In this document: positions 4,082 through 64,000 of the stretch, piece by piece | How the letters are laid out: each line of letters begins with the position of its first letter | Numbering within the stretch: position 1 is the stretch's first letter | DNA from: Oscillospiraceae bacterium | Lineage (GTDB): Bacteria; Bacillota; Clostridia; Oscillospirales; Oscillospiraceae | DNA length: 64,000 bases | Assembly: GCA_017482385.1 (NCBI GenBank) | Contig: JAFUNI010000022.1 | Span: 108,763 to 172,762, forward strand | Reading direction: 5' to 3' | Position numbers and translations under genes: made by a program | Notes under the pieces: generated by a model | The model's input: the letters and a program-made list of their open reading frames with translations, nothing else | Databases searched by the model: none | Told to the model about the DNA's origin: nothing

Positions 4082-4082
4082 G

Positions 4083-4103: not shown

Positions 4104-4137
4104 ATTGCATTTTTGCCTGCGGCAAAAACTATTGTAG

Positions 4138-4184: not shown

Positions 4185-4220
4185 ATTTGTGATTTTCAAG
4201 TCCTTAATCCGAGAAAAAAA

Positions 4221-4246
4221 GACCCGATAGCTTATGCTATCGGGTC
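4221..4246 (-). terminator. Terminator of the tRNA operon
   Basis: Perfect 11-base stem GACCCGATAGC/GCTATCGGGTC with a four-base loop, followed on the minus strand by seven T residues. It lies five bases past the 3' end of tRNA-Trp. Confidence 0.85.
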
Positions 4247-4251
4247 TTTTT

Positions 4252-4327
<76 letters not shown>

Positions 4328-4359
4328 ATTTATTCAAAAAGGCAATGCCTTTTGTTCTC

Positions 4360-4436
4360 TGGTGGGCCCTCAGGGATTCGAACCCGGGACTATCCGGTTA
4401 TGAGCCGGAGGCTCTAACCAACTGAGCTAAGGGCCC
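4360..4436 (-). tRNA. tRNA with CAU anticodon (Met elongator or Ile2)
   Basis: Minus-strand cloverleaf with acceptor GGGCCCT/AGGGCCC, D arm TTAGCTCAGTTGGTTAGAGC, anticodon loop CTCATAA (CAU), T arm CGGGTTCGAATCCC and an encoded CCA end. The anticodon alone cannot separate elongator methionine tRNA from isoleucine tRNA whose C34 becomes lysidine. An initiator is unlikely because the first base pair is G-C and the anticodon stem lacks the G-C run of initiators. Confidence 0.9.
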
Positions 4437-4509
4437 ATAAGTTCAGTGCCTGAGCACCATCGCCGGGTTATTATATCACCCGCAAGGTGCATTGTCAAGG
4501 ATTTATTTT

Positions 4510-4551
4510 CTATTCCGGTGCTTTTCGGAGTTTTCCCAGGCAGGACACATA
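4510..4551 (-). pseudogene. Relic of the sigK 3' end
   Basis: This stretch closely matches the last coding bases of the intact sigK (5654 onward). Read on the minus strand it still gives L-G-K-L-R-K-A-P-E-stop against L-E-K-L-R-K-A-L-E-stop in sigK, and a further shared GGACACATA block appears after a deletion of about 15 bases. It lies directly downstream of the fucosidase-like gene, so that gene is bracketed by two sigK 3' ends. I infer a duplication or insertion scar. Confidence 0.65.
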
Positions 4552-4559
4552 TGGACAAT

Positions 4560-44262: not shown

Positions 44263-44324
44263 ATATTCTGCCGCAAAAGGCAAATAATTTTTTACAAGCC
44301 CTTGCTTTTCAAAAGAGAAAGTGC

Positions 44325-44512
44325 TATGCTGAATATGCTGTTAGGGGAAACAGGTGTGATCCCTGTACGAGTCCGTCGCCGTGAAGCGCTTGATACCGCC
44401 GTTCTTACCGGGGCTGCCGCAAGCACCGGGACAGGGCCATTGGAATCTTCCGAGAAGGCCGGATGGCTGTGCGCCAAGTCGGAATATCCGGACAGCAAAA
44501 CCCACATAAAAG
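44325..44512 (+). promoter_or_regulatory. Cobalamin riboswitch controlling the DUF4430 lipoprotein
   Basis: The plus strand contains TTAGGGGAAACAGGTGTGAT, then CCCTGTACGAGTCCGTCGCC ending in a GCCGTGAAGCG B12-box-like block, and later GCCAAGTCGGAATATCCGGAC, the ordered core of a cobalamin riboswitch. It ends about 50 bases before the lipoprotein start; no terminator was recognised in that gap, so translational control by masking the AAGGAG site is more likely. It lies back to back with the minus-strand riboswitch. Confidence 0.82.
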
Positions 44513-49031: not shown

Positions 49032-50183
49032 CTATTCCCTATTGCCAGTATGGCGTTGTGCAATTTTATGGCAATAATCCTCAATATGCTCAGAATGATA
49101 TCTTACTAGCATAGATGGGCGTATCATTTCTCTAAGTGCCTCCAAAATAAGGTCTTTGGAATTTTCGGATATTCTTTTAAACGAATCCCAATCATTTCTC
49201 ATTTCTAAAACAATATCTCTCGCTAATTTGGTATCAAAGAATGAACCGTTTTCCAATAAAACGATTGTCCGCGGGTATATTGCCCTCTGCCGATCAACAG
49301 GGCACAATGCATCAAAATCAAGTATTTCTACAATGTTTTGATGCTGCAGTAATTCATCAAATGACCCATCAAACGAACATATGAATCCTTGTTCACATCT
49401 AATACCAAACAAGAATTCTGCCAAGCGTCGATATCGTACAATTCCATTAGCAACTTCTCGCTGATCTACGTTTTCAATCGACGTAATAATTGCGGTTTTT
49501 AGATCTTCAAACTGTTCATTAAGTCTGTCAATTTGTTTGGCTTCTTCTTCTTCACGATTCCTCTGTTCATATAGTAATCTTTGGAAATAGGCAGACCATT
49601 GTTTCTTTAATACATCCTCAATATCTTGAAGTCTTTCAAATTGGAAGAATTGATTGCCTGTTTTTCTAAGCCTTATGTAGTTCAAAAATCCAAAAATATA
49701 CGGTGCAGTTTCACGCTTCTCTATAGCAGGAAAAACTATGTTTTTAATCACTTCTGGTTTATCCTTATTCTTCTCATACACTTTATGCTCATAATAAACT
49801 TTCTTTTCTACAAAGGTATAAATTGGGATGTTGCTTTCAATCGCCTTCAACACTTCTAGTTGAGTAATTGAGATGGGCTTATCCTGAGTAATAAAGGAAG
49901 GATCTTTAGATAATTCTTGTAACATTGCCGAATCTATACTGTCCAATGCCTGTGGAACGCTTGCTCCACCAAAGCGAGAACCAATAATAACAACCATGAT
50001 ATCACAGTTACTGACCTCATTTACACAACTCGTATGCGTATGGATTCGTGGATCATATAACACATCGGCATATTCACTCATCACAGGTTCATGTCCTAAA
50101 GACAGAACGAAGTTGCGGAGCTCCGCTCGTAATACCGATAAATCATAGCATGTAGACGAAATAAAAACTTTTGTGCCTGCCAT
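49032..50183 (-). CDS. DUF4062 domain protein
   Basis: A 383-residue protein starting KVFISSTCYDLSVLRAEL, with VSNCDIMVVIIGSRFGG near residue 60: the DUF4062 domain, a TIR/Rossmann-like fold often found at the N-terminus of STAND and other conflict proteins. The rest is helical (coiled-coil-like stretch at about 195-235, RNREEEEAKQIDRLNEQFEDLK) followed by an unassigned domain. AGGAG precedes the ATG. It follows the KAP NTPase gene by 26 bases and is surely co-transcribed; NTPase plus sensor/effector is the inferred arrangement. Confidence 0.78.
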   Translation of the reverse strand: MAGTKVFISSTCYDLSVLRAELRNFVLSLGHEPVMSEYADVLYDPRIHTHTSCVNEVSNCDIMVVIIGSRFGGASVPQALDSIDSAMLQELSKDPSFITQDKPISITQLEVLKAIESNIPIYTFVEKKVYYEHKVYEKNKDKPEVIKNIVFPAIEKRETAPYIFGFLNYIRLRKTGNQFFQFERLQDIEDVLKKQWSAYFQRLLYEQRNREEEEAKQIDRLNEQFEDLKTAIITSIENVDQREVANGIVRYRRLAEFLFGIRCEQGFICSFDGSFDELLQHQNIVEILDFDALCPVDRQRAIYPRTIVLLENGSFFDTKLARDIVLEMRNDWDSFKRISENSKDLILEALREMIRPSMLVRYHSEHIEDYCHKIAQRHTGNRE

Positions 50184-50209
50184 TTTTCTATCTCCTTGTT
50201 TATGTTATA

Positions 50210-52015
50210 TTAGTAATTCTTAATTGCAGCCTCTATATGCCCAATAAGCCATAAATATTGAAGCCTAACTATTTTGTCTGCCCCTTTGTTGCTATCCAGT
50301 AAATTTTGAACACCTGCTTGGAATCCAACGAGAGCATCTTTATCATTTGGCAGAAAATCACTTATATTTGCAATTCCATACGTGGATAGGAATCCTCTTC
50401 TAAATTCCGAAACTTGTGTTGCTGTAGCTTTTTCGAGTCCGACTAAAATCTTATCAGTATCAATTTTATCCATAAAGCTCTTGCTTTGTCGAACATCACT
50501 TTCTTTATCATACATCAACTCTGCAATCTTTTGCAAATACTCAAGAGGATCGTCCTCTTTGATGTAAGAAAAAGCATTGCTTTGGAAAACAGACGACATT
50601 TCTTGAATAAAGGTGTTATATTCTTTAACCTGTATATCGTCCCAAAAGCTAAAACTGTCGTGGATTCGTAATCTATCTAATATTCTACCATCCCGATGTG
50701 TGACCTTTTTCAGGTTCTGCAGCATAATTGTTTTACATTCATCTATTATATCTGGGTTGTCTAGCAGGGATCTAACAGCAATAAGATAGTTTGCCAATTT
50801 GCCATACTGTATAACAGGAATAACCGTCCCATCTTTCAACTCATCTCGCACCATTTCTACAGCACAGCCAAGAATAACGCTTTTTTGATTTGGAAAATCA
50901 TAGAGTATACTTAATGCAGTATTCGTTCCTTGCTGCTTTTTCTCGTACTCTTTTCTTTCGATAAAAGTTTCTTGGTTAGACTTAATTTCAGAAACATCTA
51001 ACTCTTGATACTTAATATAATCATAGCAGAATTTGTATAGTGGGTACTCACTAGTTCCTAATGAATTGGGGTTTGTTCTCTCTCCCCATTTTAGGTCATC
51101 GTTGCTTTTTAATCTTAATGAAAAAGCAAGATTGCCAAGAAGGACATGCTTAAAAAACACAATGTCTAAATTATTTTTGTAGTTTAGGAATATATCTACC
51201 GTTTTTTGACAAGCAAAAATAAGCGATCTTAAATTGTATACTCCTACATCTGCCATCACACTTCTTATTTCATTGACAATGAGAGCCTTGCCGTGGGTGT
51301 CTTTTTCTTCTAAACACGTATTGAGGTTAGGATCAGAAAACGTTTTAAGAATATTCTCAATAGCCGCATCAAAATCACATAAGTAATGAATTGTATCACT
51401 AACAGTTTTTTCTTTTATCTTTAAATATTCTTCTGTTTCAGCCGTGTATACCCATTTCGTTGTATCTTTCCCCTCTTTGTCCTTGGTGATCTTTTCTTCA
51501 AGATCTTTAACCTCGTTTTCATTAGCAACTAAAAGAACCTTTGCACCGTCTTGCTCAACCAAATTATTCACATACCCTAGTACCTGTTTGATGCTTATGC
51601 CAGATCGTTCTAAATCTTCTAAAATAATTAGTTTATCGGACAGATCAATTGATGTATATAGTTTCTCTAAATCCTCTTCCCTTACCGAAAGATCAATTCC
51701 AACAGTACTTAAACCATTTTTCAATAACGTTTTAGCAACAATTTTTCCGGCTTCAAATTTCTCGTTCTTGCTACCTATTTTCTTAACGCGCAATTCGAAG
51801 TAAATAGCTTTACTAATTTCTTTAATATCATTTAAACCATATAAGGAAACGACAACACACTTTTTGTCTCCATCATGCTCTAGATGAGGTATAAGACTAT
51901 TTTGTATATAATAGCTCTTTCCCATTCCCCAAGGGGCAATTAGCATTATTGCGCTTTTTGTTTTATCATTTTTCAGATAGTTTTCAATATACAGGTTGTA
52001 TTCATGATCATTCAT
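50210..52015 (-). CDS. KAP-like P-loop NTPase
   Basis: A 601-residue P-loop protein: Walker A APWGMGKSYY at residues 27-36, Walker B LIILEDLERSG at 129-139, and YVNNLVEQDGAKVLLVANENEV as the sensor strand, the layout of KAP/STAND-like NTPases. No membrane segment is evident, unlike many KAP proteins. The C-terminal 350 residues are helical and unassigned. GGAGA precedes the ATG. Together with the DUF4062 gene downstream it forms a two-gene unit; anti-phage function is an inference from island context. Confidence 0.75.
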   Translation of the reverse strand: MNDHEYNLYIENYLKNDKTKSAIMLIAPWGMGKSYYIQNSLIPHLEHDGDKKCVVVSLYGLNDIKEISKAIYFELRVKKIGSKNEKFEAGKIVAKTLLKNGLSTVGIDLSVREEDLEKLYTSIDLSDKLIILEDLERSGISIKQVLGYVNNLVEQDGAKVLLVANENEVKDLEEKITKDKEGKDTTKWVYTAETEEYLKIKEKTVSDTIHYLCDFDAAIENILKTFSDPNLNTCLEEKDTHGKALIVNEIRSVMADVGVYNLRSLIFACQKTVDIFLNYKNNLDIVFFKHVLLGNLAFSLRLKSNDDLKWGERTNPNSLGTSEYPLYKFCYDYIKYQELDVSEIKSNQETFIERKEYEKKQQGTNTALSILYDFPNQKSVILGCAVEMVRDELKDGTVIPVIQYGKLANYLIAVRSLLDNPDIIDECKTIMLQNLKKVTHRDGRILDRLRIHDSFSFWDDIQVKEYNTFIQEMSSVFQSNAFSYIKEDDPLEYLQKIAELMYDKESDVRQSKSFMDKIDTDKILVGLEKATATQVSEFRRGFLSTYGIANISDFLPNDKDALVGFQAGVQNLLDSNKGADKIVRLQYLWLIGHIEAAIKNY

Positions 52016-52054
52016 TCTCTTTCTCCAATCATTTGTGAGTTATTATATAATTTA

Positions 52055-52942
52055 TCAGTACAAAATCCTAAAGTAATCCAAATAGGCTTTAAAGCGATCC
52101 TGGGCGGTGAGGCAGGTGTCCATAAGGAAGCCTCTTTCGTGATTCCATTCCTTGAGGCCGCGGTAGTAGAACAGTTTCAGATTGTCCTCGATGATGAATG
52201 GCACAATATTGTGCTTCAGGCACTCTTTGAAGAGGATCAGGCGGCCCACACGGCCATTTCCGTCCTGGAAGGGATGGATGCGTTCAAAAGCTACATGGAA
52301 GGCTACAATGTCCTCAAAGGTCTTGGAAGGCAGCGCATTATAGTCTGCCAGCAGTTTACGAATCTCACCGGCAACATTTTCGGGGAGCGTGGTATCATTA
52401 CCACCCACCTCATTGGGCAGTTTCTTGTACTCACCTACCGCAAACCAATCCTTACGGCTGTCGCTGGTGCCGGTCTTCAGTACGAAATGCAGCTCCTTAA
52501 TAAACTTCTCAGTCAGCGCAAAACCAGCTTGGTCGATCACCATATCGATGCAACGGAAGTGGTTGGATGTTTCAATCACATCATCCACATTCACAGACTC
52601 ATTTTCAAAACCGATGGTATTGGTCTCAAAGATATACCGAGTCTGATCGTGAGTAAGACGGCTGCCCTCAATATGGTTAGAGTTGTAGGTCAGATCGATC
52701 TGCACTTTGTGATAGATACCGCCGATCATCTTGGCAGCCTTCTGCTCCCGCAAGATCTGCAGCAAGGACGGGGTATCTTTCTTTTTATTGACACGATCCG
52801 GCTTCCGAGCATTTTCCGGAATGTACCAAGTTTTTCCGATAAGCTTGGCGTCACGAATTCTGCCCTGAGCACAGTAATTTCTCACACTTCGTTCAGAAAG
52901 TCCCCATTTTTCAGCCATTTTCGCAACAGATACGTATTCCAT
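52055..52942 (-). CDS. Fic-domain protein with N-terminal HTH and inhibitory motif
   Basis: A 295-residue Fic protein. The active loop reads HPFQDGNGRVGRL, complete for AMP transfer, and the N-terminal inhibitory motif is visible in NSNHIEGSRL (S-x-x-x-E-G), as in self-inhibited class II Fic proteins. The first 55 residues form a MerR-like helix-turn-helix (YVSVAKMAEKWGLSERSVRNY), suggesting DNA-binding autoregulation. ATG at 52942 with GGGAGG upstream; an upstream start is poor. It is divergent from the ATPase-macrodomain pair and has no separate antitoxin gene. Confidence 0.87.
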   Translation of the reverse strand: MEYVSVAKMAEKWGLSERSVRNYCAQGRIRDAKLIGKTWYIPENARKPDRVNKKKDTPSLLQILREQKAAKMIGGIYHKVQIDLTYNSNHIEGSRLTHDQTRYIFETNTIGFENESVNVDDVIETSNHFRCIDMVIDQAGFALTEKFIKELHFVLKTGTSDSRKDWFAVGEYKKLPNEVGGNDTTLPENVAGEIRKLLADYNALPSKTFEDIVAFHVAFERIHPFQDGNGRVGRLILFKECLKHNIVPFIIEDNLKLFYYRGLKEWNHERGFLMDTCLTAQDRFKAYLDYFRILY

Positions 52943-53048
52943 AGTTACCTCCCGGCAATTTTTCTTGACCTTATTATACCACATTATCGGCAAAATAGCA
53001 ACCATTTTTACATTGAAATATTATAATTATTGCCGGTATGTAGCTTAG

Positions 53049-53072
53049 GGATGGGGCGATTTTGCCCCGTCC
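53049..53072. repeat. Junction hairpin R1
   Basis: Stem GGATGGGGC/GCCCCGTCC with a six-base loop between the divergent Fic and AAA ATPase genes, followed by GGTGGGTTATATTTAT and then the ribosome site. First member of the hairpin family found across 53-61 kb. Confidence 0.75.
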
Positions 53073-53113
53073 GGTGGGTTATATTTATAGAACAACAACT
53101 AAGGAGGGGTTTT

Positions 53114-54073
53114 ATGATCTACTTGGAGAGTTTTTCTTTTCCAAACGAATCTCAAGAAACAGCCTTTTTGCATCCGAAGGACAAAACTCCTGAAGAAGTG
53201 AAAAATTTGGTAAAGAAAGATTTTAGAACTCGGTTTCACTATGGTTCAGTTTATCCTTTTGAGATTCTGAGTCCCAATGGCATGTACGGTGCATCCTTTG
53301 ATGAAATTACCATTTTTTGTGGCGGTAATGGCTGTGGAAAAACCACCGCATTAAACGTAATTGCAGAAAAGCTTGGATTAAAACGAGATAGTCTTTTTAA
53401 CAGTGGTCGTTTTCTTCAAGACTATTTGAATCTATGTACCTATAAATCGCACTTGGGTGAGGACGGATATTGGCGACAAGTAAAAGGAAAGGAAATGGGG
53501 ATCTGTGTTCCGGTAGATAGTCGGATTATCGTCAGTGATGATGTATTTGCGCATTCTATGAAGCAACGGCAAGTCAATGATCAAATTATCCGTAATCGGC
53601 CAGAAGTGGAGCATGAATTGGATGTCATTGCATGCAGTAACCCTCGTTTGCAATCACTTGCAGATTATGATCGCTGGGCAGCGAGAAACGATGCACTAAA
53701 AAACCAGTCTGCTTTTATAAGGAAAAAGCTCGGCGAAGAAGCACAGGAACACTCCAATGGTGAAACGGCTATGCTGTATTTTCTGGAGAGAATGGAAAAT
53801 CCGGGACTATATCTGCTAGATGAACCAGAGAACAGCCTGTCTTTAGAAAATCAAAAAACACTAGCTGAATACATCGTTAATTCTGCTCGTTTTTTCAAGT
53901 GTCAGTTCATTATTGCAACTCACTCTCCTATATTTCTATCTATCAAAGGTGCACGAATATATGACATGGACGAAAAACCTGTAGTAACAAAAAAGTGGAC
54001 AGACGTTGAAAACGTCCGAGCAATGTATAACTTTTTCAAGACCCACGAAGCTGAGTTCGGCAAAGGTGTATGA
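53114..54073 (+). CDS. AAA family ATPase (ABC/OLD-like)
   Basis: A 319-residue ATPase: Walker A in CGGNGCGKTTALN near residue 75, EHSNGETAMLYFL as the signature-like region, Walker B in LYLLDEPENSLSLENQ, and QFIIATHSPIFLS as the switch histidine strand. This matches small ABC-type ATPases of the predicted-ATPase/OLD kind. ATG at 53114 with AAGGAGG upstream; longer frames run into the hairpin. Its stop overlaps the start of the macrodomain gene (ATGA), so the two are translated together. Confidence 0.83.
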   Translation: MIYLESFSFPNESQETAFLHPKDKTPEEVKNLVKKDFRTRFHYGSVYPFEILSPNGMYGASFDEITIFCGGNGCGKTTALNVIAEKLGLKRDSLFNSGRFLQDYLNLCTYKSHLGEDGYWRQVKGKEMGICVPVDSRIIVSDDVFAHSMKQRQVNDQIIRNRPEVEHELDVIACSNPRLQSLADYDRWAARNDALKNQSAFIRKKLGEEAQEHSNGETAMLYFLERMENPGLYLLDEPENSLSLENQKTLAEYIVNSARFFKCQFIIATHSPIFLSIKGARIYDMDEKPVVTKKWTDVENVRAMYNFFKTHEAEFGKGV

Positions 54074-54627
54074 GTATGGGAAACATAATAGTTCTCCACG
54101 GCAATATTGTAGATGATGTTATTCTAAAGCTTGGTGACGCTATTGTCTTACCAACAAACCCCATGATGCGATGTGGCGCTGGCGTCAGCGGAGCAATTTT
54201 CAAGAAGGCCGGTGTTGATCAGCTAGAACACTATACTGAGAAAACTTTCGGAATCAGTTACTACGATATGACACGGAAAAACGAGATGAAGCCAACAGAA
54301 GTCCGCGTAACCCCCGGTTTTGCACTGCCCTGTGACATAATCTTTGCACAAGGCCCCAAAGCATATGAATATGAAGACTTCGAAGATGCACTTAACTTGC
54401 TGCTCCAGACATATCAAAATATTATCCATACCGCAATGGTGCGCGGATATAAATCAATCCTGCTACCTGCGCTTGGTACAGGATCGTATGGCTTTACGCA
54501 CGTAGACACCGCACAGAATGTTATACATTTGTTGAAAACTATGTTACAAGGCAACGATTTAACGGTGTATTTCGTGGTGTATGAAGAAGAAACTAGATAC
54601 ATATATTGGCAATACCTTAATGCGTAA
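54070..54627 (+). CDS. Macrodomain (ADP-ribose-binding) protein
   Basis: A 185-residue macrodomain: DAIVLPTNPMMRCGAGVSGAIFKKAG near residue 25 (the N-x-x-x-x-x-G-G/A-V-x-x-A/I loop), then GYKSILLPALGTGSYGFTHVDTAQ, the phosphate-binding loop. Members bind or hydrolyse ADP-ribose or its protein adducts. It overlaps the ATPase gene by four bases; AAAGGTG is better spaced for an ATG at 54076. Pairing with an ATPase and a divergent Fic gene suggests conflict chemistry on nucleotides, but that is inference. Confidence 0.87.
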   Translation: MSMGNIIVLHGNIVDDVILKLGDAIVLPTNPMMRCGAGVSGAIFKKAGVDQLEHYTEKTFGISYYDMTRKNEMKPTEVRVTPGFALPCDIIFAQGPKAYEYEDFEDALNLLLQTYQNIIHTAMVRGYKSILLPALGTGSYGFTHVDTAQNVIHLLKTMLQGNDLTVYFVVYEEETRYIYWQYLNA

Positions 54628-54636
54628 TACGCAATC

Positions 54637-54676
54637 AACCCACCAGATGGGGCAAAAACGCCCCGTCTGGTGGGTT
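54637..54676. repeat. Junction hairpin R2
   Basis: Seventeen-base stem AACCCACCAGATGGGGC/GCCCCGTCTGGTGGGTT (one G-U) with loop AAAAAC, between the macrodomain and PolC-like genes. It continues ATATTTATGGC, very close to the sequence after R1. Confidence 0.85.
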
Positions 54677-54713
54677 ATATTTATGGCAAAAAAAGAAATT
54701 GGAGGTTTCTGCT

Positions 54714-56147
54714 ATGAATAACCGTATAGCCGTTTATGGATTTACAGAAGAGCAATTGATGCTTTTGGCAGAACACATACCAGAGGGGTATGTCTGCAAG
54801 AAATACGATGACGCAGTTGGATTAATCGGTACACATTGCCTTTGCAACATTATCTGCTCTGAAGGTTTGGACACCAAAGCACGGGAGTTTTTGGATAGCT
54901 TCTACCTTGATGTAGGCGAGAATGCCGATGAGCAGGTTATATGGATTGATTCTCAGACAAAGCCGCCGGAGTTAGAAGGTGTCTATTTTCATTATAATAG
55001 CCTTTCGAAACTGCTACCCGAGTTGAAAATGGTTTTGGAACGAGCTCAGAAGCATTACACAATTCAGCAAATGTATTGCGGTCCCTTTGCATTTCTGCCC
55101 AAGTTGGGGATTGAGGAAATATTGGAAGATGAACTGCGGGATGCACGGCAAAACAAGTATGGAAGAGAACCGGAAATCTTCAAGCGTGTTCGTCAGGAGT
55201 GGACCGCTCTTTTAGAAGTGGATGCGATTTCGGAATTGGCTGCAGTAGATGAATTAATTACTTGGCTGAAACAAAACAAGCACCCCTATCGGCTTGGTGG
55301 AACAGCAGTGTGCGGTATGATCCCTTATTTGCTTGGCATCCACGATGTAAATCCGTTGCCATCTCATCTGTATTGTTCTGAATGCCAAAAGGTTATTTGG
55401 AAAGATGATTATAAGGATGGTTTTGACATTCCACCGGAAGTCTGCCCCGAGTGTGGCGGACTGATGCAGGGAGACGGACATAACCTCGTCTGGCAGGAAT
55501 ATGCAAGCTATGGCCGTGTGCCAACCTATGTGTTTTATCTGCCTTATGATATGAAACCGCTAATTTCCGATTGGCTGGATAACCATTGGCTGCGTAAGTA
55601 CATGGGCGATCAATGGGAAGCTGCCCAGCCTTACGAGGATCACCTGGCAAGAGGAAATATGCTCTTCCGGTTTGAGCTGGACCGGAACGAAATCTCTCCA
55701 GAGTTTTACGGCATCAACATTGGTTCAAACAGCAAAGCAGAACTCATTCAGATGGCAACCAACGACGAGTATTATCACAAAAATCCCTATCCCAAAGATA
55801 TGGGAGAACTGTTGACACAGCTTGGCTTTCGAAAAACGCTTTGGAAGGAAGATGAAGTTACCCGTAACATTTTTCTGCAGAACAAAATCTCGTGGAGAAA
55901 CATTCCTGCTTGCCGCGAGGAGGTGTTCTTCTATCTGAAAGAGCACGACTTTATAGACAAGGACGCTTTTCGCGGTATGACAAGCGTTCGCAAAGGCAAG
56001 GGTCTGCCGGTGGTTACTGAGAATATGCGAACTGCGGAAGATTATTGGAAAGTAGACTATTTCAATCAAATCGACTGGATGCCATCCAAAGCGATTCTGC
56101 TGCAAAGGCTTTTCTTTGGAATTAAAAGGAAGATAAAGGAGAAATAA
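54714..56147 (+). CDS. PolC-like protein lacking polymerase catalytic residues
   Basis: A 477-residue protein with segments that align by eye to the palm and zinc region of Gram-positive DNA polymerase III PolC. Residues 200-270 contain GIHDVNPLPSHLYCSECQ, GFDIPPEVCPECGGLMQGDG and a following tyrosine-rich strand; PolC has the same spacing (TEVNPLPPHY-C-x2-C, GFDLPDK-x-C-x2-CG, KKDGHDIPFE). Residues 365-435 match the PolC region ending in ESVRKGKGL (here TSVRKGKGL). The PolC catalytic segment PDIDLNF reads PTYVFYL here, so the aspartates are missing. The first 120 residues are unlike PolC. GGAGG precedes the ATG; the DnaA-like gene starts two bases after its stop. Polymerase activity is very unlikely. 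Confidence 0.7.
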   Translation: MNNRIAVYGFTEEQLMLLAEHIPEGYVCKKYDDAVGLIGTHCLCNIICSEGLDTKAREFLDSFYLDVGENADEQVIWIDSQTKPPELEGVYFHYNSLSKLLPELKMVLERAQKHYTIQQMYCGPFAFLPKLGIEEILEDELRDARQNKYGREPEIFKRVRQEWTALLEVDAISELAAVDELITWLKQNKHPYRLGGTAVCGMIPYLLGIHDVNPLPSHLYCSECQKVIWKDDYKDGFDIPPEVCPECGGLMQGDGHNLVWQEYASYGRVPTYVFYLPYDMKPLISDWLDNHWLRKYMGDQWEAAQPYEDHLARGNMLFRFELDRNEISPEFYGINIGSNSKAELIQMATNDEYYHKNPYPKDMGELLTQLGFRKTLWKEDEVTRNIFLQNKISWRNIPACREEVFFYLKEHDFIDKDAFRGMTSVRKGKGLPVVTENMRTAEDYWKVDYFNQIDWMPSKAILLQRLFFGIKRKIKEK

Positions 56148-56149
56148 CA

Positions 56150-56800
56150 ATGGGTCAAACGGAAAACACCTTTGAGAATTTTATAATTACATCATCAAAT
56201 CGCTTTGCTTATCTTGTTGCTCAAGAAATATGCAAATCCCCTGGTTCCTACAATCCTCTGTATCTTTATGGACCTGCAGGTGTTGGAAAGACCCACTTGC
56301 TACGGGCCGTTGGAGAAGTATACCAAAATCAGCATCTAACAGGCATCTATCTCTCTGCAAATCAGTTTGCAGAAGAGATGATTAACGCAATCAAAACAGG
56401 AGCCAATGTAGAGTTCAAGGAGAAATATTGCCAGGTTGATATTTTACTCATTGATAGATTGCAATATATTAGTGGGAAAGAGGCAACGCAGGAAACGCTA
56501 TACAGCATTATTGAGAAACGGGTATCAGATAGCAAACAGACGGTCTTTGCCGGAAATACAGCCCCTGCGCAGCTTGATTTGGAGCAAGGACTGCGTTCTT
56601 TTATGGCGCGTGGCTTGTGTGTGGAAGTACCAACTCAGGGTATTGAAGAAACAGCTCAAATTATTTTCCAAAAACTAAAGGGGCTCGGAATAGATTGTTC
56701 AATGGGTACCTGCAAATACATAGCACTAAATATTCCTTCTAAAGTCTGTCAGATAGAGGGAGAAATCAATAAAATCTTAGCACTTAGCAAATTGCTGTAA
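56150..56800 (+). CDS. DnaA-like AAA+ domain protein, altered active site, no DNA-binding domain
   Basis: A 216-residue relative of the DnaA AAA+ module. It starts TFENFIITSSNRFAYLVAQE (DnaA: TFDNFVxGxxNRFA), has an intact P-loop LYGPAGVGKTHLLRAV, FKEKYCQVDILLID, and KEATQETLYSII. Walker B reads LLIDR (second Asp is Arg 103), the box VII arginine finger of RSRF is Phe 151 (RSFM), and the sensor II arginine of NVRELEGAL is Cys 200 (KVCQIEGEI). Domain IV, which reads DnaA boxes, is absent. It should bind ATP but neither hydrolyse normally nor bind oriC. It could join DnaA filaments as a poison, act like Hda, or be delivered by the PolC-like partner two bases upstream. Function unproven. Confidence 0.8.
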   Translation: MGQTENTFENFIITSSNRFAYLVAQEICKSPGSYNPLYLYGPAGVGKTHLLRAVGEVYQNQHLTGIYLSANQFAEEMINAIKTGANVEFKEKYCQVDILLIDRLQYISGKEATQETLYSIIEKRVSDSKQTVFAGNTAPAQLDLEQGLRSFMARGLCVEVPTQGIEETAQIIFQKLKGLGIDCSMGTCKYIALNIPSKVCQIEGEINKILALSKLL

Positions 56801-56840
56801 ACACCACCCGATGGGGCGAAAATGCCCCGTCGGGTGGTGT
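56801..56840. repeat. Junction hairpin R3
   Basis: Seventeen-base stem ACACCACCCGATGGGGC/GCCCCGTCGGGTGGTGT (one G-U), loop GAAAAT, starting one base after the DnaA-like stop codon and followed by GTCTTTTCATG. It lies between convergent genes. Confidence 0.88.
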
Positions 56841-56870
56841 GTCTTTTCATGCATTCTTTATCGTATACCA

Positions 56871-57380
56871 TCAGTACAAAACATCATCTGTCTCGATAAT
56901 TTGGTAAACTACATTTTCCAAATTGGACTCTTCCACGACCTTCTTTTTAATAGAATCCGTATATATTGCTGGCTGCAGATAGATAACAGCCTTGTTATAG
57001 CGCAGATCCACACGCCCCATCGGATAATAATTATATTTCTTCCCGTGGGTGACTTCCGTTGAAAGGTTTTCCCATACCTTTTTGTGATGATTTTTAGGAA
57101 TCCCTGGTGGTTCTTTAATGTAAATCAGCTTTCCATCTATGACCCAGAAAACACCCTGCATACATCGATTTGTAATAAATACATCGCAATTTAACGCACC
57201 GCAAAAACGATCGTTGGAAGAAAATGCACAGCGTTGACAACAATAATGACAAATATAGGCTCCATCCTCCCGGTTCGTTTTAGGGTGTGGGCAAAAGCGT
57301 ATTTGCGGGATGCGGTATTGACGGCCACATTTTCCGCAGATGTAGGAAGATGTAGTTTGATTCGTTTCTTGCAAATTCAT
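56871..57380 (-). CDS. Cysteine-rich zinc-finger-like protein of unknown function
   Basis: A 169-residue protein whose first 75 residues contain cysteine pairs typical of zinc ribbons: YICGKCGRQYRIPQIRFCPHP, YICHYCCQRCAF and RFCGALNCDVFITNRC. The rest is a short alpha/beta region without assignment. AAGGAGG precedes the ATG. It is the only minus-strand gene in the stretch 53-62 kb and is divergent from the Spo0A-like gene across hairpin R4. Nucleic acid or protein binding is a guess. Confidence 0.65.
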   Translation of the reverse strand: MNLQETNQTTSSYICGKCGRQYRIPQIRFCPHPKTNREDGAYICHYCCQRCAFSSNDRFCGALNCDVFITNRCMQGVFWVIDGKLIYIKEPPGIPKNHHKKVWENLSTEVTHGKKYNYYPMGRVDLRYNKAVIYLQPAIYTDSIKKKVVEESNLENVVYQIIETDDVLY

Positions 57381-57418
57381 ATTGAATACCTCCTTTTCTT
57401 ATGTCCTTAGACTATCAC

Positions 57419-57448
57419 ACCCGATGGGGCGAAATTGCCCCGTCGGGT
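57419..57448. repeat. Junction hairpin R4
   Basis: Stem ACCCGATGGGGC/GCCCCGTCGGGT (one G-U) with loop GAAATT in the divergent gap between the zinc-rich and Spo0A-like genes, followed by GTGTATCTTTATGGC. Confidence 0.88.
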
Positions 57449-57504
57449 GGTGTATCTTTATGGCAGGAAGTGAAAAACATTTCCGCCAGAAAGGAGAAAT
57501 ACAT

Positions 57505-58254
57505 ATGAAAAAGCAGGTTTTGATTGCAGATGCAGACGAACAGTTCCGCAACGAACTGGTAACCATCTTAAAAGACAGCGAAGAATTTGAAGTAATGGGC
57601 GTAGCAGTTGACGGCCAGGAGGCACTCCAAATAGCCAGTGAGAATCGACCGGACATTATCATTCTGGATCTGTTGCTGCCCCAGTACGACGGCATTAGTG
57701 TTTTGGACTTGATTTCTGTCCGGTATGCTGACTGCAAGGTATTTGTTGCAACCGGTTTTATCAGCAACTATATCATTTCGGCGTTGGCAACAAGACGGGT
57801 TTCCGCTCTAATGAAAAAGCCGTGTACTGCACAATGTGTTGTAGATCGAATCAACGAAGTGCTGCAGCAAAGCGACTTACCCGTTGAAGAAAAACTGCCG
57901 ACGCTGAATCAGCAAATTACAAAAATGATCCACGATATTGGTGTACCTGCTAATATCAAGGGATACCGGTATCTCCGCGAGGCAATCAAGCTTGCAGTAG
58001 AGGATTTTGACCGAATTAACAATATGACTGAGTTGATTTACAAACCAATTGCACTAGTGGATAACTCTACCCCGAAACGGGTACGGACAGCGATTACGCG
58101 GGCAGTTGAGATTGCTTGGGACAGAGGCGATCTGGATACTCTGCAAAGTTTCTTTGGATATACCGTCAGCAACACAAAAGGAAAACCTACCAACTCGGAA
58201 TTTATTGCTATCTTAGCAGATAAAATGCTATTTCCGTATGGAAGAATCCTTTAG
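57505..58254 (+). CDS. Spo0A-like response regulator
   Basis: A 249-residue two-domain regulator. The receiver (1-120) has acidic residues D9 and D11 in VLIADADEQ, the phosphoacceptor D55 in IIILDLLLPQYDG, T83 in VFVATGF and a lysine in ALMKKPC. The C-terminal domain from about residue 140 reads ITKMIHDIGVPANIKGYRYLREAI, RVRTAITRAVEIAWDRGDLD and FFGYTVSNTKGKPTNSEFIAILADKM, the Spo0A effector domain with its recognition helix. AAGGAG precedes the ATG at 57505. A complete Spo0A paralogue on an island could impose its own sporulation or replication control on the host. Phosphodonor unknown. Confidence 0.92.
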   Translation: MKKQVLIADADEQFRNELVTILKDSEEFEVMGVAVDGQEALQIASENRPDIIILDLLLPQYDGISVLDLISVRYADCKVFVATGFISNYIISALATRRVSALMKKPCTAQCVVDRINEVLQQSDLPVEEKLPTLNQQITKMIHDIGVPANIKGYRYLREAIKLAVEDFDRINNMTELIYKPIALVDNSTPKRVRTAITRAVEIAWDRGDLDTLQSFFGYTVSNTKGKPTNSEFIAILADKMLFPYGRIL

Positions 58255-58271
58255 GGATTCTATTTGCACCA

Positions 58272-58299
58272 CCCGATGGGGCGAAATTGCCACATCGGG
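58272..58299. repeat. Junction hairpin R5
   Basis: Stem CCCGATGGGGC/GCCACATCGGG with one mismatch, between the Spo0A-like and WYL genes. The sequence is more diverged than R2-R4 but keeps GATGGGGCGAAATTGCC. Confidence 0.75.
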
Positions 58300-58348
58300 C
58301 GTTGTAATATGGTGTCAAACATGATACACTAACTACGAGGTGATTGAA

Positions 58349-59413
58349 ATGGCACAAACCGCACCGGCAAAGAAAATGCTCATGATGAATATTCTCGACA
58401 TTCTGAAGCGATACACAGATGCGGAACATACACTGAGCCAAAAACAAATCATAGACTATCTATGGTCTGACTATAATATGGCCGCTGACCGCAAAACCGT
58501 GGCGCGGAATCTGTCAAATCTGATGGAAGCCTATGAGTCCGTTCAATATAAAGGTGAGGTTGCGCGCACCTACATCAACAAACAGGGCAAAAAAGAAACC
58601 AGCTACATCCTCTCTGACTTCTACCTGGAGCGTGATTTTACAGATGCTGAGCTGCGACTGCTGATCGACAGTTTGCTGTTCTCCAAGCATATTCCCTATC
58701 GGCAGTGTCAGGAACTGGTGGAGAAACTGGAGGGATTAAGCAACAAATACTTCAGCGCTCACGTAAAGCACGTTCGGACAATGACTGGAATCACCACTCC
58801 CAATAACCAGTTATTCTGGACAATCGAAGTTTTGGATGAGGCAATCGAAAAAGGATTACAGGTCGCATTCAACTATAACACCTACAAAACAGACAAAAAA
58901 ATGCACCCTAGCGTGAACCCCGATGGCTCAGTACGGGAGTTCGTGGTAAACCCATACCAGATGGCGGCCACTAACGGACGGTACTATTTGGTCTGTAATT
59001 ACGATGAAAAGCCTAATCTTGCAAACTGCCGTCTGGATCGGATCACCGACATTCGCCTGCTGGACACACCGGCAAAGCCCAAGGAGCAGGTGCAAGGTGG
59101 AAAGCAGTTTTCCCTTCCCCAGCATATGGCAGAACATCTGTATATGTTTAGCGGTGAAAGTGTGCCTGTGACATTCCGAATGAAGAAGGGCATTGTAAAA
59201 GATGTCATTGATTGGTTCGGTATGGATGTCGCTTTCTCTGACGAAACTGAGGACGAAGTCACCGCCCGGGTCACCGTCAATTGGCATGCCATGCGCCACT
59301 GGGCACTGCAATACTGCCGCCATGTTACTGTTCTGTCGCCCCCTGATTTGGCAGAGCATGTTCAACAAGACTTGGTGGAGGCGTTGGAGCGATATAAAAA
59401 CTGTGAGGACTAA
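58349..59413 (+). CDS. WYL-domain transcriptional regulator
   Basis: A 354-residue regulator with an N-terminal winged helix (ILKRYTDAEHTLSQKQIIDYL and RKTVARNLSNL, residues about 14-60), a WYL domain (FVVNPYQMAATNGRYYLVCN, followed by NCRLDRITDIRLL) and a C-terminal WCX-type domain. WYL proteins bind ligands such as nucleic acids or cyclic nucleotides and control defence islands. ATG at 58349 with GAGGTG upstream; the GTG nine bases earlier is less likely. It may regulate the hairpin-linked genes around it. Confidence 0.87.
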   Translation: MAQTAPAKKMLMMNILDILKRYTDAEHTLSQKQIIDYLWSDYNMAADRKTVARNLSNLMEAYESVQYKGEVARTYINKQGKKETSYILSDFYLERDFTDAELRLLIDSLLFSKHIPYRQCQELVEKLEGLSNKYFSAHVKHVRTMTGITTPNNQLFWTIEVLDEAIEKGLQVAFNYNTYKTDKKMHPSVNPDGSVREFVVNPYQMAATNGRYYLVCNYDEKPNLANCRLDRITDIRLLDTPAKPKEQVQGGKQFSLPQHMAEHLYMFSGESVPVTFRMKKGIVKDVIDWFGMDVAFSDETEDEVTARVTVNWHAMRHWALQYCRHVTVLSPPDLAEHVQQDLVEALERYKNCED

Positions 59414-59464
59414 TTCTCTCTACAAAATCGGTATATTGTTAGAAACAAATGTAGGAGGCATACT

Positions 59465-60115
59465 ATGCATAATGGTGAATTCAGAGGAGATCTGGCCGAA
59501 AACCAAAAGGTAAGAGTTTTAATTCTGGGTGAGTCCCACTATTGGGGCGAAGATAAAAAAGAGGAAGACAAGCTAACATCTAAAGTGGTTGAAACCTATT
59601 TAAAAAAATACAACTCCCGGATTCGTTCCGAAAAGGATCGCTCCTATCGATTCTTTGACAATATTGTGCAGGCTTTCGGAATTGATCCTGAAAATCGAAC
59701 CGATTTCTGGAACCGTGTTTGGTTCGGGAACTACATCGATGAACCGTGTGGAGTCAGAGATTCTCAGGCAACTAAGGTACTCAAGAGGCCTGGTAAGCGC
59801 GATGCTCTCAACAAACAGTTATTTGAATTTATTGAAGAGAATAAAATCGATATTGTATTCTGTTTCAGCAGAAAAGTGTATGCCAAGCTTCCTCCGTTGG
59901 AATTGGCTGGCGACAGCGAGAAAACAGGAGAAAAAAGTGACTCCCACCGTCTGGATATGTGTGTATACGGTGCAGGAGAGAGAAAGGCTGTATCCATACC
60001 CCTTTCTAAATCCGTTACCGTTTACGGTCTAAAGCATCCCTCTCAAGGATTTAGCTACCGTAAATATCAAAACCTAATCAAGAAAATTGTTCAAGAACAT
60101 GGATTGCTATTCTAA
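59465..60115 (+). CDS. Unknown protein, faintly uracil-DNA-glycosylase-like
   Basis: A 216-residue protein with VRVLILGESHYWGE near the N-terminus, FWNRVWFGNYI in the middle, IDIVFCFSRKVYAKL, and KHPSQGFSYRKYQ near the C-terminus. An early G-E-S loop, a central strand and a late H-P-S motif recall the uracil-DNA glycosylase-like fold, but I cannot confirm the family. AGGAGG precedes the ATG at 59465. It lies 51 bases after the WYL gene without a hairpin, so they may be co-transcribed. Confidence 0.5.
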   Translation: MHNGEFRGDLAENQKVRVLILGESHYWGEDKKEEDKLTSKVVETYLKKYNSRIRSEKDRSYRFFDNIVQAFGIDPENRTDFWNRVWFGNYIDEPCGVRDSQATKVLKRPGKRDALNKQLFEFIEENKIDIVFCFSRKVYAKLPPLELAGDSEKTGEKSDSHRLDMCVYGAGERKAVSIPLSKSVTVYGLKHPSQGFSYRKYQNLIKKIVQEHGLLF

Positions 60116-60143
60116 AGAAAAATGCCTTAAGGAGTGTGTACAT

Positions 60144-60707
60144 ATGCAAGAATATATTTGGGTACTGTGCGAAGAATTAGATCCGATGGATAGCTTCGAT
60201 GAAACAAGAGCAAAGAACATTTGGACATTTAATGATTTTGAAGCAGCAAAGACCGCTCTGCGGAAGTTGATGCGCACCAGAGCCTGTACAGAAAATAAGG
60301 TCTTTAACGGAAAAGGCGGGATCCGAGGCTTGACAGAACGGATTCAGGAAGCAATTAGCTGGGGAGAAAGCGATCTGGAACATGATGGCCGCTTAATTCT
60401 ATGGGGCTTATACGATATGTTTATTGATGGCAAGCCTTTTCCGGAAGAATGTGATGAAGGAATTGGCTGGTTGGCTTTCGGGTTCGATTGCTGTTACGAT
60501 CTGGACGCCAACGGTGAATACTATTTCTCTGTAAGTGGTGATGGTGGCGGTATTGATCCCAGAATCTACATCAATACCTTCCAGATGGATGATCCGGAAA
60601 AAACATATATCTGCCGTTTGGACTGCAAATTTGACGAATGGCATAACGAAGACAACGGCTTCTGGGCTGTTACATTAAAGCGCACAACATTAAATCAGTT
60701 TCCTTAA
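60144..60707 (+). CDS. Hypothetical protein
   Basis: A 187-residue soluble protein, rich in acidic and aromatic residues, with segments such as YIWVLCEELDPMDSFDE and GIGWLAFGFDCCYDLDANGEYYF. I do not recognise a family. ATG at 60144 has AAGGAG nine bases upstream; a longer frame begins within the preceding gene. It follows that gene by 28 bases and precedes hairpin R6, so it probably ends the WYL-led transcription unit. Confidence 0.6.
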   Translation: MQEYIWVLCEELDPMDSFDETRAKNIWTFNDFEAAKTALRKLMRTRACTENKVFNGKGGIRGLTERIQEAISWGESDLEHDGRLILWGLYDMFIDGKPFPEECDEGIGWLAFGFDCCYDLDANGEYYFSVSGDGGGIDPRIYINTFQMDDPEKTYICRLDCKFDEWHNEDNGFWAVTLKRTTLNQFP

Positions 60708-60742
60708 TGAAATAACAAATTGTGCTTGATGACCTAATTTTG

Positions 60743-60782
60743 CCCCATCGGGGATGGTAGAATGAAACCATCCCCAATGGGG
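60743..60782. repeat. Junction hairpin R6 (variant)
   Basis: Sixteen-base stem CCCCATCGGGGATGGT/ACCATCCCCAATGGGG with one mismatch and an eight-base loop, upstream of the Hfq-like gene. The loop faces differ from R1-R5, but the arms share the GATGGGG and GCCCCATC blocks. Confidence 0.7.
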
Positions 60783-60816
60783 TGAATTATTTAGAGAAAA
60801 GAAAGAAGGATGTTTT

Positions 60817-61032
60817 ATGAACCTACAGGAAGCAATATTGAACGAGCTCATGAAGGAACGGGTACCGGCAACGTTCTTTCTAATGAATGGTTTTCAAATC
60901 AGAGGTATTTTAACAGCATATGACAGCGTTGTGATCGTGGTAGTAACAGATGGTAAACAACAAGTGTTCTATAAGCACGCAATCTCTACTATTGCACCGT
61001 TGCGTCCTCTTAAGTGTTTAGAGAATAGATGA
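60817..61032 (+). CDS. Hfq-like RNA chaperone
   Basis: A 71-residue Sm-fold protein close in length and sequence to Hfq: Sm1 motif NLQEAILNELMKERVPATFFLMNGFQIRGILTAYD (split here by position 2-36) and Sm2 motif VFYKHAISTIAP at 50-61, with the K-H pair of the proximal RNA-binding site. In Hfq the corresponding text is LQDPFLN, LxxxxxPVxxxLxNGxxLxG and YKHAIS. AAGAAGGA precedes the ATG. A second Hfq on a mobile element could interfere with or bind host small RNAs, or chaperone island RNAs such as the junction hairpins. Confidence 0.85.
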   Translation: MNLQEAILNELMKERVPATFFLMNGFQIRGILTAYDSVVIVVVTDGKQQVFYKHAISTIAPLRPLKCLENR

Positions 61033-61045
61033 TCTAATTTCTACG

Positions 61046-61074
61046 GCTGGATGGGGCGTTTTTTCTGCATCGGC
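61046..61074. repeat. Degenerate junction hairpin R7
   Basis: Weak remnant: GGATGGGGCG, a T run, then TGCATCGGC, between the Hfq-like and lipoprotein genes. Only part of the stem can form. Confidence 0.45.
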
Positions 61075-61115
61075 TATGATATTGTTGAATTACCAAGAAT
61101 TAAGGAGGTAATTCA

Positions 61116-61574
61116 ATGAAAAAACTACTCGCAATCATTTTGGCCTTGGTGTGCACCCTGTCTATGGTAGCCTGCTCTACCGATGAGACGATCTTCGAAA
61201 CAACCGAAAGCTCACAGACACAGCAATCTACCAAACCATCAGCTGACAGTGCACCGCAAGAAACGAACAAACCCAACCAGCCGACACAGCCCGTCGTGAC
61301 ACAGCCCCAACAGAATATGTGTTACTGGTGCGGTGAAATGCCGGTTGGTGATTTCGAAACCTACTGCATCAACTGCCGCTGTCTTAAGTGCGATAAACTG
61401 CGCAAGGATGGTGGTGGAAAATACGTGTATTGTCGGGATCACAACTGCAATGAGAGCCTGTGTGAATATCCCGCATTTGAGGACAGTCAGTACTGCTCCG
61501 AGCACAAGTGCAGTAAACCCAACTGCGATAACCGCAGATGGCCCGGTTCCGAATACTGCGCACATCACAAATGA
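61116..61574 (+). CDS. Cysteine-rich lipoprotein
   Basis: A 152-residue lipoprotein: signal peptide KLLAIILALVCTLSMVACST with lipobox Cys near residue 20, a Ser/Thr/Pro/Gln linker (25-68), then a domain with about 12 cysteines and several histidines in repeated units such as YCINCRCLKCDKLR, CRDHNC, YCSEHKC and YCAHHK. The pattern suggests metal-binding zinc-finger-like repeats outside the cell. AGGAGG precedes the ATG. Family not recognised. Confidence 0.72.
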   Translation: MKKLLAIILALVCTLSMVACSTDETIFETTESSQTQQSTKPSADSAPQETNKPNQPTQPVVTQPQQNMCYWCGEMPVGDFETYCINCRCLKCDKLRKDGGGKYVYCRDHNCNESLCEYPAFEDSQYCSEHKCSKPNCDNRRWPGSEYCAHHK

Positions 61575-61646: not shown

Positions 61647-62816
61647 ATGTTCCGCAATTACAAAAACTACAAAATCCATCTCAGAAAGGACGGTCGGTAT
61701 ACTGCACGGGTTATGGATCAAGGGCATAATACCGTCTTTTATGGCAGGACCAAAAAGGAGGTTCAGCAAAAACTGGAGGTGTTTATTGCTGAGCTAAACG
61801 CCACGGCACAAATAAAATACGAAATGGCCCACCCCACAAAATATATGACTTTAAGAAACTGGGCATATCTCTGCTTGAATACCTACTGTGTTGCAAACAT
61901 TCAGGGAAACACCTATGCGGCATACGAACGGCTGATCCGCTTGCACTTCGGTGAGTTGGGAGATATGCCCATTGGGCGCATATCGAGCCTTATGGTTCAA
62001 AAACACATCACAGACTGTTCCCTGCTTGTGGATGAAAACGGAATCAGCGAAAGCCACCTATGCCGTCTGCGGAATTTCATGCACATGATCTTTGAATACG
62101 CCATTCAAAACAATATGATTCTGCACAATCCCACAAAAGGTGTCCGCATTCCCAAGACCGGCATCAATGAGAACCGTGCCTTGTCCTCGGAAGAGATCGT
62201 ACGGCTCATTAACGCTGTGCATAACTCTGACCATTTGGTCACATTTTGCATTATCCTGTGCCTTTTCACGGGGCTCAGAAAGGGTGAGCTGCTCGGTCTG
62301 AAATGGAGCAATGTTGACTTTGAAAATCGGACCATCACAATAGAGCACCAGCTTGTACGAGAATATAAGATCAACTCCACAGACGAGGCTAAAACGCGCT
62401 ATGTTCCCAAAACCACAAAAACCAAAAGTTCCAAGCGCACGATTCATATGATAGAACCGTTGGCAAAGGAATTTGAAGAATACAAGCGCAAGCTGTTGGA
62501 GCAGCAAGCAGAACGTGATATCCCGTATTCAGAGGACAATTATGTATTCCCCACCCGGAACAATACAGGCTTTGCAAGCAAAACCTTCTACAGATATTAC
62601 CACGAAATTCTTGAGGCAGCTGGGATCACAGATGTTAATTTTCATACACTCCGTCACACCTTCGCAACCATGTGCCTGGAATCCGGCACGGACCTCCTTA
62701 CGATCTCCAGAACACTTGGCCATGCCAGTGTAAAGATAACCGGTGACGTATATTTACATATGTCCCAATCGCATCAAAAAACGTGCCTAGACAAGCTGAA
62801 TTCTTGCTATATTTAG
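61647..62816 (+). CDS. Tyrosine site-specific recombinase (integrase)
   Basis: A 389-residue phage/ICE-type integrase. It has a short N-terminal arm-binding region (YKIHLRKDGRYTARVMD), a SAM-like core-binding domain (WAYLCLNTYCVANIQGNTYAAYERLI), and a catalytic domain with the R in FTGLRKGELLGLKW, HTLRHTFATMCLESG (H-x-x-R), LGHASVKITGDVYLHM with His and the nucleophile Tyr. ATG at 61647 with AGGAGA upstream. It probably mobilises or once mobilised the island to its left. Confidence 0.95.
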   Translation: MFRNYKNYKIHLRKDGRYTARVMDQGHNTVFYGRTKKEVQQKLEVFIAELNATAQIKYEMAHPTKYMTLRNWAYLCLNTYCVANIQGNTYAAYERLIRLHFGELGDMPIGRISSLMVQKHITDCSLLVDENGISESHLCRLRNFMHMIFEYAIQNNMILHNPTKGVRIPKTGINENRALSSEEIVRLINAVHNSDHLVTFCIILCLFTGLRKGELLGLKWSNVDFENRTITIEHQLVREYKINSTDEAKTRYVPKTTKTKSSKRTIHMIEPLAKEFEEYKRKLLEQQAERDIPYSEDNYVFPTRNNTGFASKTFYRYYHEILEAAGITDVNFHTLRHTFATMCLESGTDLLTISRTLGHASVKITGDVYLHMSQSHQKTCLDKLNSCYI

Positions 62817-63881: not shown

Positions 63882-64000
63882 ATGGGAAAGAATCTCAAAG
63901 GCAAAGAATGTGGTAAGGGTATCTACCAAAGAAAGGATGGTCGATACAGCGCAAGGTATATTGATAAAGCAGGAAAGCGACACGAAAAATATTTCCAAAC
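63882..64000 (+). CDS. Second tyrosine integrase, N-terminal part, cut by window end
   Basis: The frame begins MGKNLKGKECGKGIYQRK and continues DGRYSARYIDKAGKRHEKYF, a Tn916-type integrase N-terminal arm-binding domain, similar in layout to the recombinase at 61647. GGAAAGGAG lies upstream of the ATG. The catalytic domain is beyond the window. With the xis gene it marks the end of a second, Tn916-like element. Confidence 0.82.
   Translation, partial: MGKNLKGKECGKGIYQRKDGRYSARYIDKAGKRHEKYFQ

Follow-up and report, generated by a model that had tools for sequence, protein, structure and literature searches.

The window analysed here, a stretch of 64,000 nucleotides from an Oscillospiraceae bacterium (assembly GCA_017482385.1, contig JAFUNI010000022.1, positions 108,763 to 172,762), carries towards its 3' end an island in which look-alikes of the host proteins PolC and DnaA stand beside a Spo0A-like response regulator, Hfq and a WYL-domain transcription regulator. 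We give an even chance to the reading that this is a mobile, modular stress or defence island which is run as one regulon by its WYL regulator and whose look-alikes jam replication. The regulon of the WYL protein is well supported by the sequence; the look-alikes would serve as effectors that interfere with replication. Most likely, the island responds to damage or to phage, and its effectors would either jam replication or bait attackers.

The regulon is indicated by a palindromic element, seven copies of which lie between the island genes (approximately 53,049 to 61,085). The element consists of a 20-bp palindrome followed by 9 bp and a -10-like box (signature ATG-N14-CAT, 9 bp, TAnnnT). Copy 1 (53051..53085, plus strand; box TATATT; 20.0 bits with a matrix trained without the window and the loci L110 and L142) precedes a gene pair encoding an AAA15 ATPase and a macro-domain protein, and copy 2 (54647..54681, plus strand; below 13 bits with this reduced matrix, 13.2 bits in another matrix scan) precedes the PolC-like gene. 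Copy 4 (57424..57458, both strands; 21.9 bits on the plus and 18.8 bits on the minus strand) is situated between the divergent genes of the Spo0A-like protein and of a cysteine-rich protein named ZnF57 here. Copy 5 (58276..58310, plus strand; 30.1 bits) is the putative operator-promoter of the WYL gene, copy 6 (60729..60763, plus strand; 28.0 bits) precedes the Hfq gene, and copy 7 (61051..61085, plus strand; 15.2 bits) a lipoprotein-integrase pair. Six of the seven copies thus precede a gene on the same strand, and six have a box that fits TAnnnT; the exception in both respects is copy 3 (56811..56845, plus strand; repeat search and matrix), which lies between convergent genes and has the weak box TGTCTT.

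In the 2.39-Mb host genome, searched with up to 3 mismatches, all near-perfect copies of the element were within the island, and four scattered 3-mismatch matches elsewhere corresponded to the level of the backward control (4 vs 4). With the reduced matrix, all sites of at least 13 bits in the window were island sites. Folded as single-stranded DNA, five copies formed a hairpin, one gave another fold and one remained unfolded; copy 7 gave no hairpin. Only part of the copies have an intact long outer stem, chiefly those closely behind the end of a same-strand gene; this stem may be read as a terminator overlapping the operator. No Rfam family covers the hairpins. The hairpin pattern was searched in 400 genomes of the family with up to 2 mismatches and gave, outside its own genome, one match each in 10 genomes, which were taken as chance; a scan of IMG/VR returned a single contig (L091).

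Scans of 394 genomes of the order (E up to 1e-50), 400 of the family and 391 of the class (both with E up to 1e-80) found relatives of the WYL protein in 30, 13 and 15 genomes, respectively, the sets overlapping. From the 34 places outside the window in the order scan, the 16 with at least 46% identity were taken and the 18 with 37-42% left out; all new places of the family and class scans (8 and 12) were taken. Together with the window and L110, 38 WYL loci were examined. An ATG-N14-CAT palindrome 9 bp ahead of a -10-like box was present upstream of WYL in many of these relatives. A strict form of the motif, composed after viewing the loci concerned, preceded WYL in 11 of 18 loci (including the window and L110), compared to 88 of 5202 stretches drawn at random from these loci. 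A leave-one-out matrix of element and box (at least 16 bits) yielded 28 extra sites in 24 WYL loci (405,951 bp); three of these were opposite-strand readings of other sites, and a further three lay just upstream of WYL in non-training loci. The same matrix found none in 258,559 bp of 16 control loci. In a blind set, a fixed matrix gave 12 sites in the 12 WYL loci (220,670 bp); 11 control stretches of the same genomes (167,662 bp) gave none. Extra operator-like sites were situated ahead of genes for FtsH-like proteins (L151, L152, L166 and L171), of a DnaB-like gene (L147), of a pair encoding ZnF57-like and PolC-like proteins (L171), and of gene runs containing a PolC-like gene (L174 and L179); in L142, the site is inside a long frame, ahead of the likely start of a GyrA-like gene.

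A sequence-only reading had assigned five island proteins to the PolC, DnaA, Spo0A, Hfq and WYL families and described the first two as disabled, and profile searches (Pfam and NCBIfam) and alignments bear this out. The PolC-like protein (54714..56147, plus strand; 477 amino acids) scored below the cut-off of Pfam DNA_pol3_alpha (0.0071) and is recognised through NCBIfam polC_Gram_pos (6.3e-20; 70.5 bits, full-length cut-off 1043). A profile built from three such proteins matched PolC 9qpc at 7.7e-16. The zinc and finger regions of PolC are kept (residues 135-266 and 382-434, compared to PolC 9qpc). Differences from PolC, which has about 1437 amino acids, are the short length, an additional N-domain (residues 1-120) and the loss of the catalytic aspartates: VPTYVFYL replaces VPDIDLNF (by eye, just beyond the end of the alignment), which we take to be the motif that carries them, and the DxD of the palm is thereby absent. 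Three pairwise comparisons among three copies gave dN/dS values of 0.11-0.13, i.e., purifying selection; the protein therefore has a use other than polymerisation. Structure prediction of the PolC-like protein provided no usable model (mean pLDDT 33). Among plasmids and phages, it matched only 4 records, over 28-33% of its length, 2 of them annotated as PolC. The N-domain recurs fused to a helix-turn-helix in L086 (1e-10), and in L177 it was seen by eye in a gene run that also holds a PolC-like gene. In both loci (L086, 8007-10794; L177, 13125-14996), the N-domain with a helix-turn-helix is located beside an RNase J-like gene.

The DnaA-like AAA+ protein (56150..56800, plus strand; 216 amino acids) matched Pfam Bac_DnaA over the cut-off (3.9e-44), this being its sole DnaA domain, and DnaA structure 8bv3 at 5.7e-40. 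In it, LRSFMARGL replaces LRSRFEWGL, presumably the arginine-finger motif of DnaA, LLIDRLQY replaces LLIDDIQF, and the protein ends before the DNA-binding domain. It resembles Hda as a short DnaA-family AAA+ protein without this domain, but it has lost the arginine finger and reached only 87.7 of the 194.8 bits required by the Hda model; against the DnaA model it was also below the cut-off (192.7 vs 343.9 bits). Among plasmids and phages, 44 records matched, all at less than 60% identity, and none of the 15 matches listed had an annotation; no match was obtained in IMG/VR. The Spo0A-like regulator (57505..58254, plus strand; 249 amino acids) has receiver and Spo0A_C domains, both over their Pfam cut-offs (Response_reg 1.9e-16; Spo0A_C 9.7e-34), and scored just below the equivalog TIGR02875 (194.8 vs 200 bits). 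Hfq (60817..61032, plus strand; 71 amino acids) was over the cut-offs of Pfam (6.8e-24) and TIGR02383 (79 vs 61.7 bits). The WYL protein (58349..59413, plus strand; 354 amino acids) carries a WYL domain over the Pfam cut-off (1.6e-09) and a WCX domain (4.1e-06); its helix-turn-helix had no Pfam match, and its presence is assumed. The host keeps separate full-length copies of all four core genes on other contigs: polC (1437-amino-acid frame, contig C16) and dnaA (462-amino-acid frame, contig C13), spo0A on contig C28 and hfq on contig C4.

Look-alikes of replisome proteins were present in 13 of the 38 WYL loci, and PolC-like genes in 7. Four of the latter encode proteins of 528 (L143), 480 (L171, PDID changed to PEIE), 728 (L174, first aspartate lost) and 393 amino acids (L179, second aspartate lost), the motifs of L174 and L179 being read by eye. 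L169 has a DnaA-like gene that lacks the DNA-binding domain, L146 and, by eye, L145 have DnaG-like genes devoid of the zinc domain, L147 has an isolated DnaB_C, and UvrD-like genes are present in L110 and L149 (the latter by eye). L142 contains a GyrA/ParC-like gene in which the tyrosine that we take to be catalytic is changed to phenylalanine. FtsH-like soluble AAA proteins occurred in 10 of the 38 loci; HExxH was present in 7 of 8 checked, and the eighth is cut by a contig end. In the blind set, PolC-like genes were found in 3 of 12 WYL loci and in none of 11 controls, which gave one DnaG match, probably a true gene, and one weak DnaB match. Among the 24 WYL genomes, the only Bac_DnaA genes (E below 1e-40) beyond full-length DnaA were those of the window and L169, both near WYL. 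Short extra DNA_pol3_alpha genes of two genomes (G402 and G145) adjoin WYL; a third genome (G501) has a 227-amino-acid gene of this family, possibly a contig-end piece, and the PolC-like gene of the window is too weak for the model and thus outside this count. Genes resembling Hen1/Pnkp and RtcB RNA-repair genes were noticed by eye next to WYL, in L169 (10716-14897), in L172 (8866-12728) and downstream of WYL in L145 and L146; WYL regulators may also control RNA repair. Besides RtcB, Hen1 and Pnkp, the names agmatine deiminase, RNase J, phosphatase, reverse transcriptase and most of the FtsH-like assignments were given by eye.

The two closest relatives found for the island indicate which parts are stable. 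L091, the 13.4-kb IMG/VR contig, has the order element, PolC-like gene (83%), element and Spo0A-like gene (88% over 226 residues); these are the only two island proteins matched, DnaA-like and ZnF57 being missing. On its minus strand, a serine recombinase gene (3464-4877) starts just past the loss of Spo0A-like homology at residue 226, as if the gene had been interrupted by a phage or element insertion. L110 (JAGBTV010000008.1, an Oscillospiraceae assembly from yak caecum) encodes a PolC-like protein (86%), a UvrD-like helicase in the place of DnaA-like, a Spo0A-like protein (42%), a WYL protein (73%) with an extra gene between the latter two, a weakly UDG-like protein, the lipoprotein (85%) and an integrase with 97% identity over its first 242 residues. 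It is devoid of DnaA-like, ZnF57 and Hfq, and another gene occupies the place of Hfq. At 8421-9428, L110 also encodes BspA-type leucine-rich repeats attached to a remnant of DNAG_N (4.5e-4, below cut-off). All five DNA homology blocks at corresponding places of the window and L110 begin at the element, and two span little beyond element and leader. From the comparison of the window with L110 and L091 it follows that the scaffold is constant and the payload swapped: DnaA-like, ZnF57 and Hfq are optional, and PolC-like, the Spo0A-type gene, WYL and the integrase are more constant.

The proposal that PolC-, DnaA-, Spo0A- and Hfq-like genes recur as one unit is thus not sustained, as DnaA-like and Hfq are absent from both relatives. 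Furthermore, Spo0A_C was found in 16 of 16 genomes of the genus, several with extra copies, and none of 15 neighbourhoods of these copies contained PolC-like or DnaA-like genes. The view that the genes are no chance cargo is upheld by purifying selection, the common operator-like element and the recurrence of look-alikes near WYL elsewhere. The WYL gene, listed previously as an extra, is present and looks like the organising part instead. The sequence-only reading, which had mentioned neither the repeated element nor the ZnF57 gene nor the integrase, was thus roughly right in its conclusion for a partly wrong reason: its four proteins form no unit but belong to a larger and probably co-regulated repertoire in which replisome look-alikes recur.

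Known WYL systems resemble the regulatory half of the island. BrxR regulates a phage-defence island by repression through two inverted repeats (PMC9122601). It shares with the present case a WYL regulator in a mobile defence island and inverted repeats that precede both the regulator gene and another unit. Its repeats, as given there, are 11 bp long with a 5-bp spacer and its islands carry BREX or restriction genes, whereas here seven copies of a 20-bp palindrome lie 9 bp from the -10 box and replisome look-alikes form the cargo. SiwR, which activates genes of the mycobacterial damage response, binds a palindrome of 19 bp ahead of the -10 box (PMC10693628), similar in size and place to the palindrome of about 20 bp described here. 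PafBC, a mycobacterial damage-response WYL activator, is activated by single-stranded DNA and replaces the -35 contact (PMC11804915); here, the palindrome overlies the -35 region, where PafBC activates. The genes regulated by SiwR and PafBC are of another kind, and the likeness to both is one of DNA sequence. As in other WYL-regulated islands, a palindromic putative operator is located at the promoter of the regulator and at further units of the island.

In the proposed mechanism, the WYL protein would bind the palindrome at the position of the -35 box. Its WYL domain would sense a nucleic-acid sign of damage or of phage replication and then switch the promoters, either by activation, as with SiwR, PafBC and the WYL activator DriD, or by release of repression, as with BrxR. 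The look-alikes would join the complexes of the real proteins or compete for their partners. A dead PolC, a DnaA with no hold on origins and, in other loci, a GyrA that lacks its tyrosine could thereby jam DNA replication, be it the invader's or the infected cell's. The payload is exchangeable. A wider form of this proposal is put forward tentatively, at somewhat less than even probability: in a bacterial immune or stress system of a new kind, WYL regulators that sense nucleic-acid damage would fire swappable counterfeit replisome parts behind a standard operator and so poison the replication of either the invader or the cell under infection, the arsenal being an inactive PolC, a DnaA that does not bind origins, a GyrA lacking the tyrosine, and DnaG and DnaB cores.

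Decoy action is the main rival to jamming. Within the same WYL regulon, inert copies would bind or sense toxins or phage proteins directed against PolC, DnaA, gyrase or primase, and host replication would continue. Partner-facing parts that are kept where catalysis is lost would suit such bait, as would a signalling-type N-domain found on the PolC-like protein and elsewhere on a helix-turn-helix protein; however, no phage partner is known, no relevant precedent was found in the literature searched, and the present data do not separate bait from poison. We regard decoys as unlikely. If the WYL regulon is real and its genes are unrelated stress and repair functions captured singly, replication would be no common target. 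The very diverse payload (FtsH-like, phosphatase-like, RtcB-like, macro and Hfq, several by eye) is what such mixed cargo would look like, and 25 of the 38 WYL loci had no replisome look-alike within the stretch seen, a count that also weighs against jamming. This explanation is rather improbable in view of the PolC-like genes in the blind loci (3/12 vs 0/11) and of the two strong non-canonical DnaA genes of the 24 genomes, both near WYL, one being the window's own.

The island might also be a replication or transfer module of the element itself, in which DnaA-like and PolC-like aid replication or the timing of excision. Element 7 places the integrase in the same regulon, but the PolC-like protein has no catalytic residues and DnaA-like is absent from L110 despite an integrase of 97% identity; this is quite improbable. 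An integron-like cassette array, with the hairpins as attC-like recombination sites, was considered since the homology blocks of the window and L110 start at the hairpins (5/5), and ZnF57 is flanked by two copies that are 95% identical. It was set aside, and is scarcely credible, since in other genomes the same core is seen as an operator-like palindrome with a -10 box upstream of WYL, in many cases lacking the long stem, and since the adjacent integrase, the only one scored, reached 63.6 of the 265 bits required for an integron integrase (TIGR02249).

Several further observations weigh against a replication-jamming WYL regulon. The unchanged strict motif preceded WYL in just 2 of 8 fresh loci (background 50/4600); in two others, judged by eye, the palindrome is followed by a weaker box. 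In the blind loci, the site was directly before WYL in 2 of 12, only elsewhere in the locus in 7 and absent in 3. Not all payload consists of dead copies, as FtsH-like proteins with HExxH and a DnaG-like protein with Toprim look active, and the PolC-like protein of L177 (756 amino acids) retains the DxD pair (by eye). Three genomes have short PolC-like genes away from WYL (G417, at 45 kb from a WYL gene, G449 and G320), and PADLOC contains no known anti-phage system that covers the island gene set. PADLOC had no model for PolC-like, ZnF57, UDG-like, Hfq or macro, and the others gave generic WYL/AAA or weak matches.

The remaining island genes, whose starts, like those above, were picked by eye from ribosome sites, are as follows. 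The AAA_15/OLD-type ATPase (53114..54073, plus strand; Pfam) is weakly PtuA/AriA-like (PADLOC), and the macro-domain protein (54070..54627, plus strand) matched Pfam at 1.3e-14. ZnF57 (56871..57380, minus strand), which matched no Pfam family, lies between the two copies mentioned above; a relative (36%) is found beside the PolC-like gene in L171. The WYL gene is followed by a UDG-like gene (59465..60115, plus strand; by eye only, no Pfam family), which adjoins WYL also in L143 and L148, and by a frame without Pfam family (60144..60707, plus strand). The pair behind copy 7 comprises a putative lipoprotein with a cysteine-rich tail (61116..61574, plus strand) and a tyrosine integrase (61647..62816, plus strand; Pfam 5.2e-30), for which IMG/VR contained one relative (28%). 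An apparent second integrase starts at 63883-64000 (plus strand, by eye) and is cut by the contig end, which is also the 3' end of the window; the right side of the mobile element is outside the view. To the left of the operator-bearing stretch, 49032-53005 (minus strand) encodes a DUF4062 protein, a KAP ATPase (PADLOC PDC-S49, 1.7e-42) and a Fic protein. A cobalamin riboswitch is located at 44309-44509 (plus strand; 36.5 bits, Rfam gathering 31.5).

With its regulatory half resembling known WYL-controlled islands, the payload would be the new part. No precedent for counterfeit replication proteins as regulated effectors was found in the open-licence literature searched, which is not proof of absence. 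The signature ATG-N14-CAT, 9 bp, TAnnnT provides a DNA mark by which further islands of this type, with their effectors, could be located, and the unusual small PolC and short DnaA proteins encoded close to WYL regulators become testable. If the reading is true, bacteria maintain counterfeit replication proteins in regulated sets and use them as effectors.

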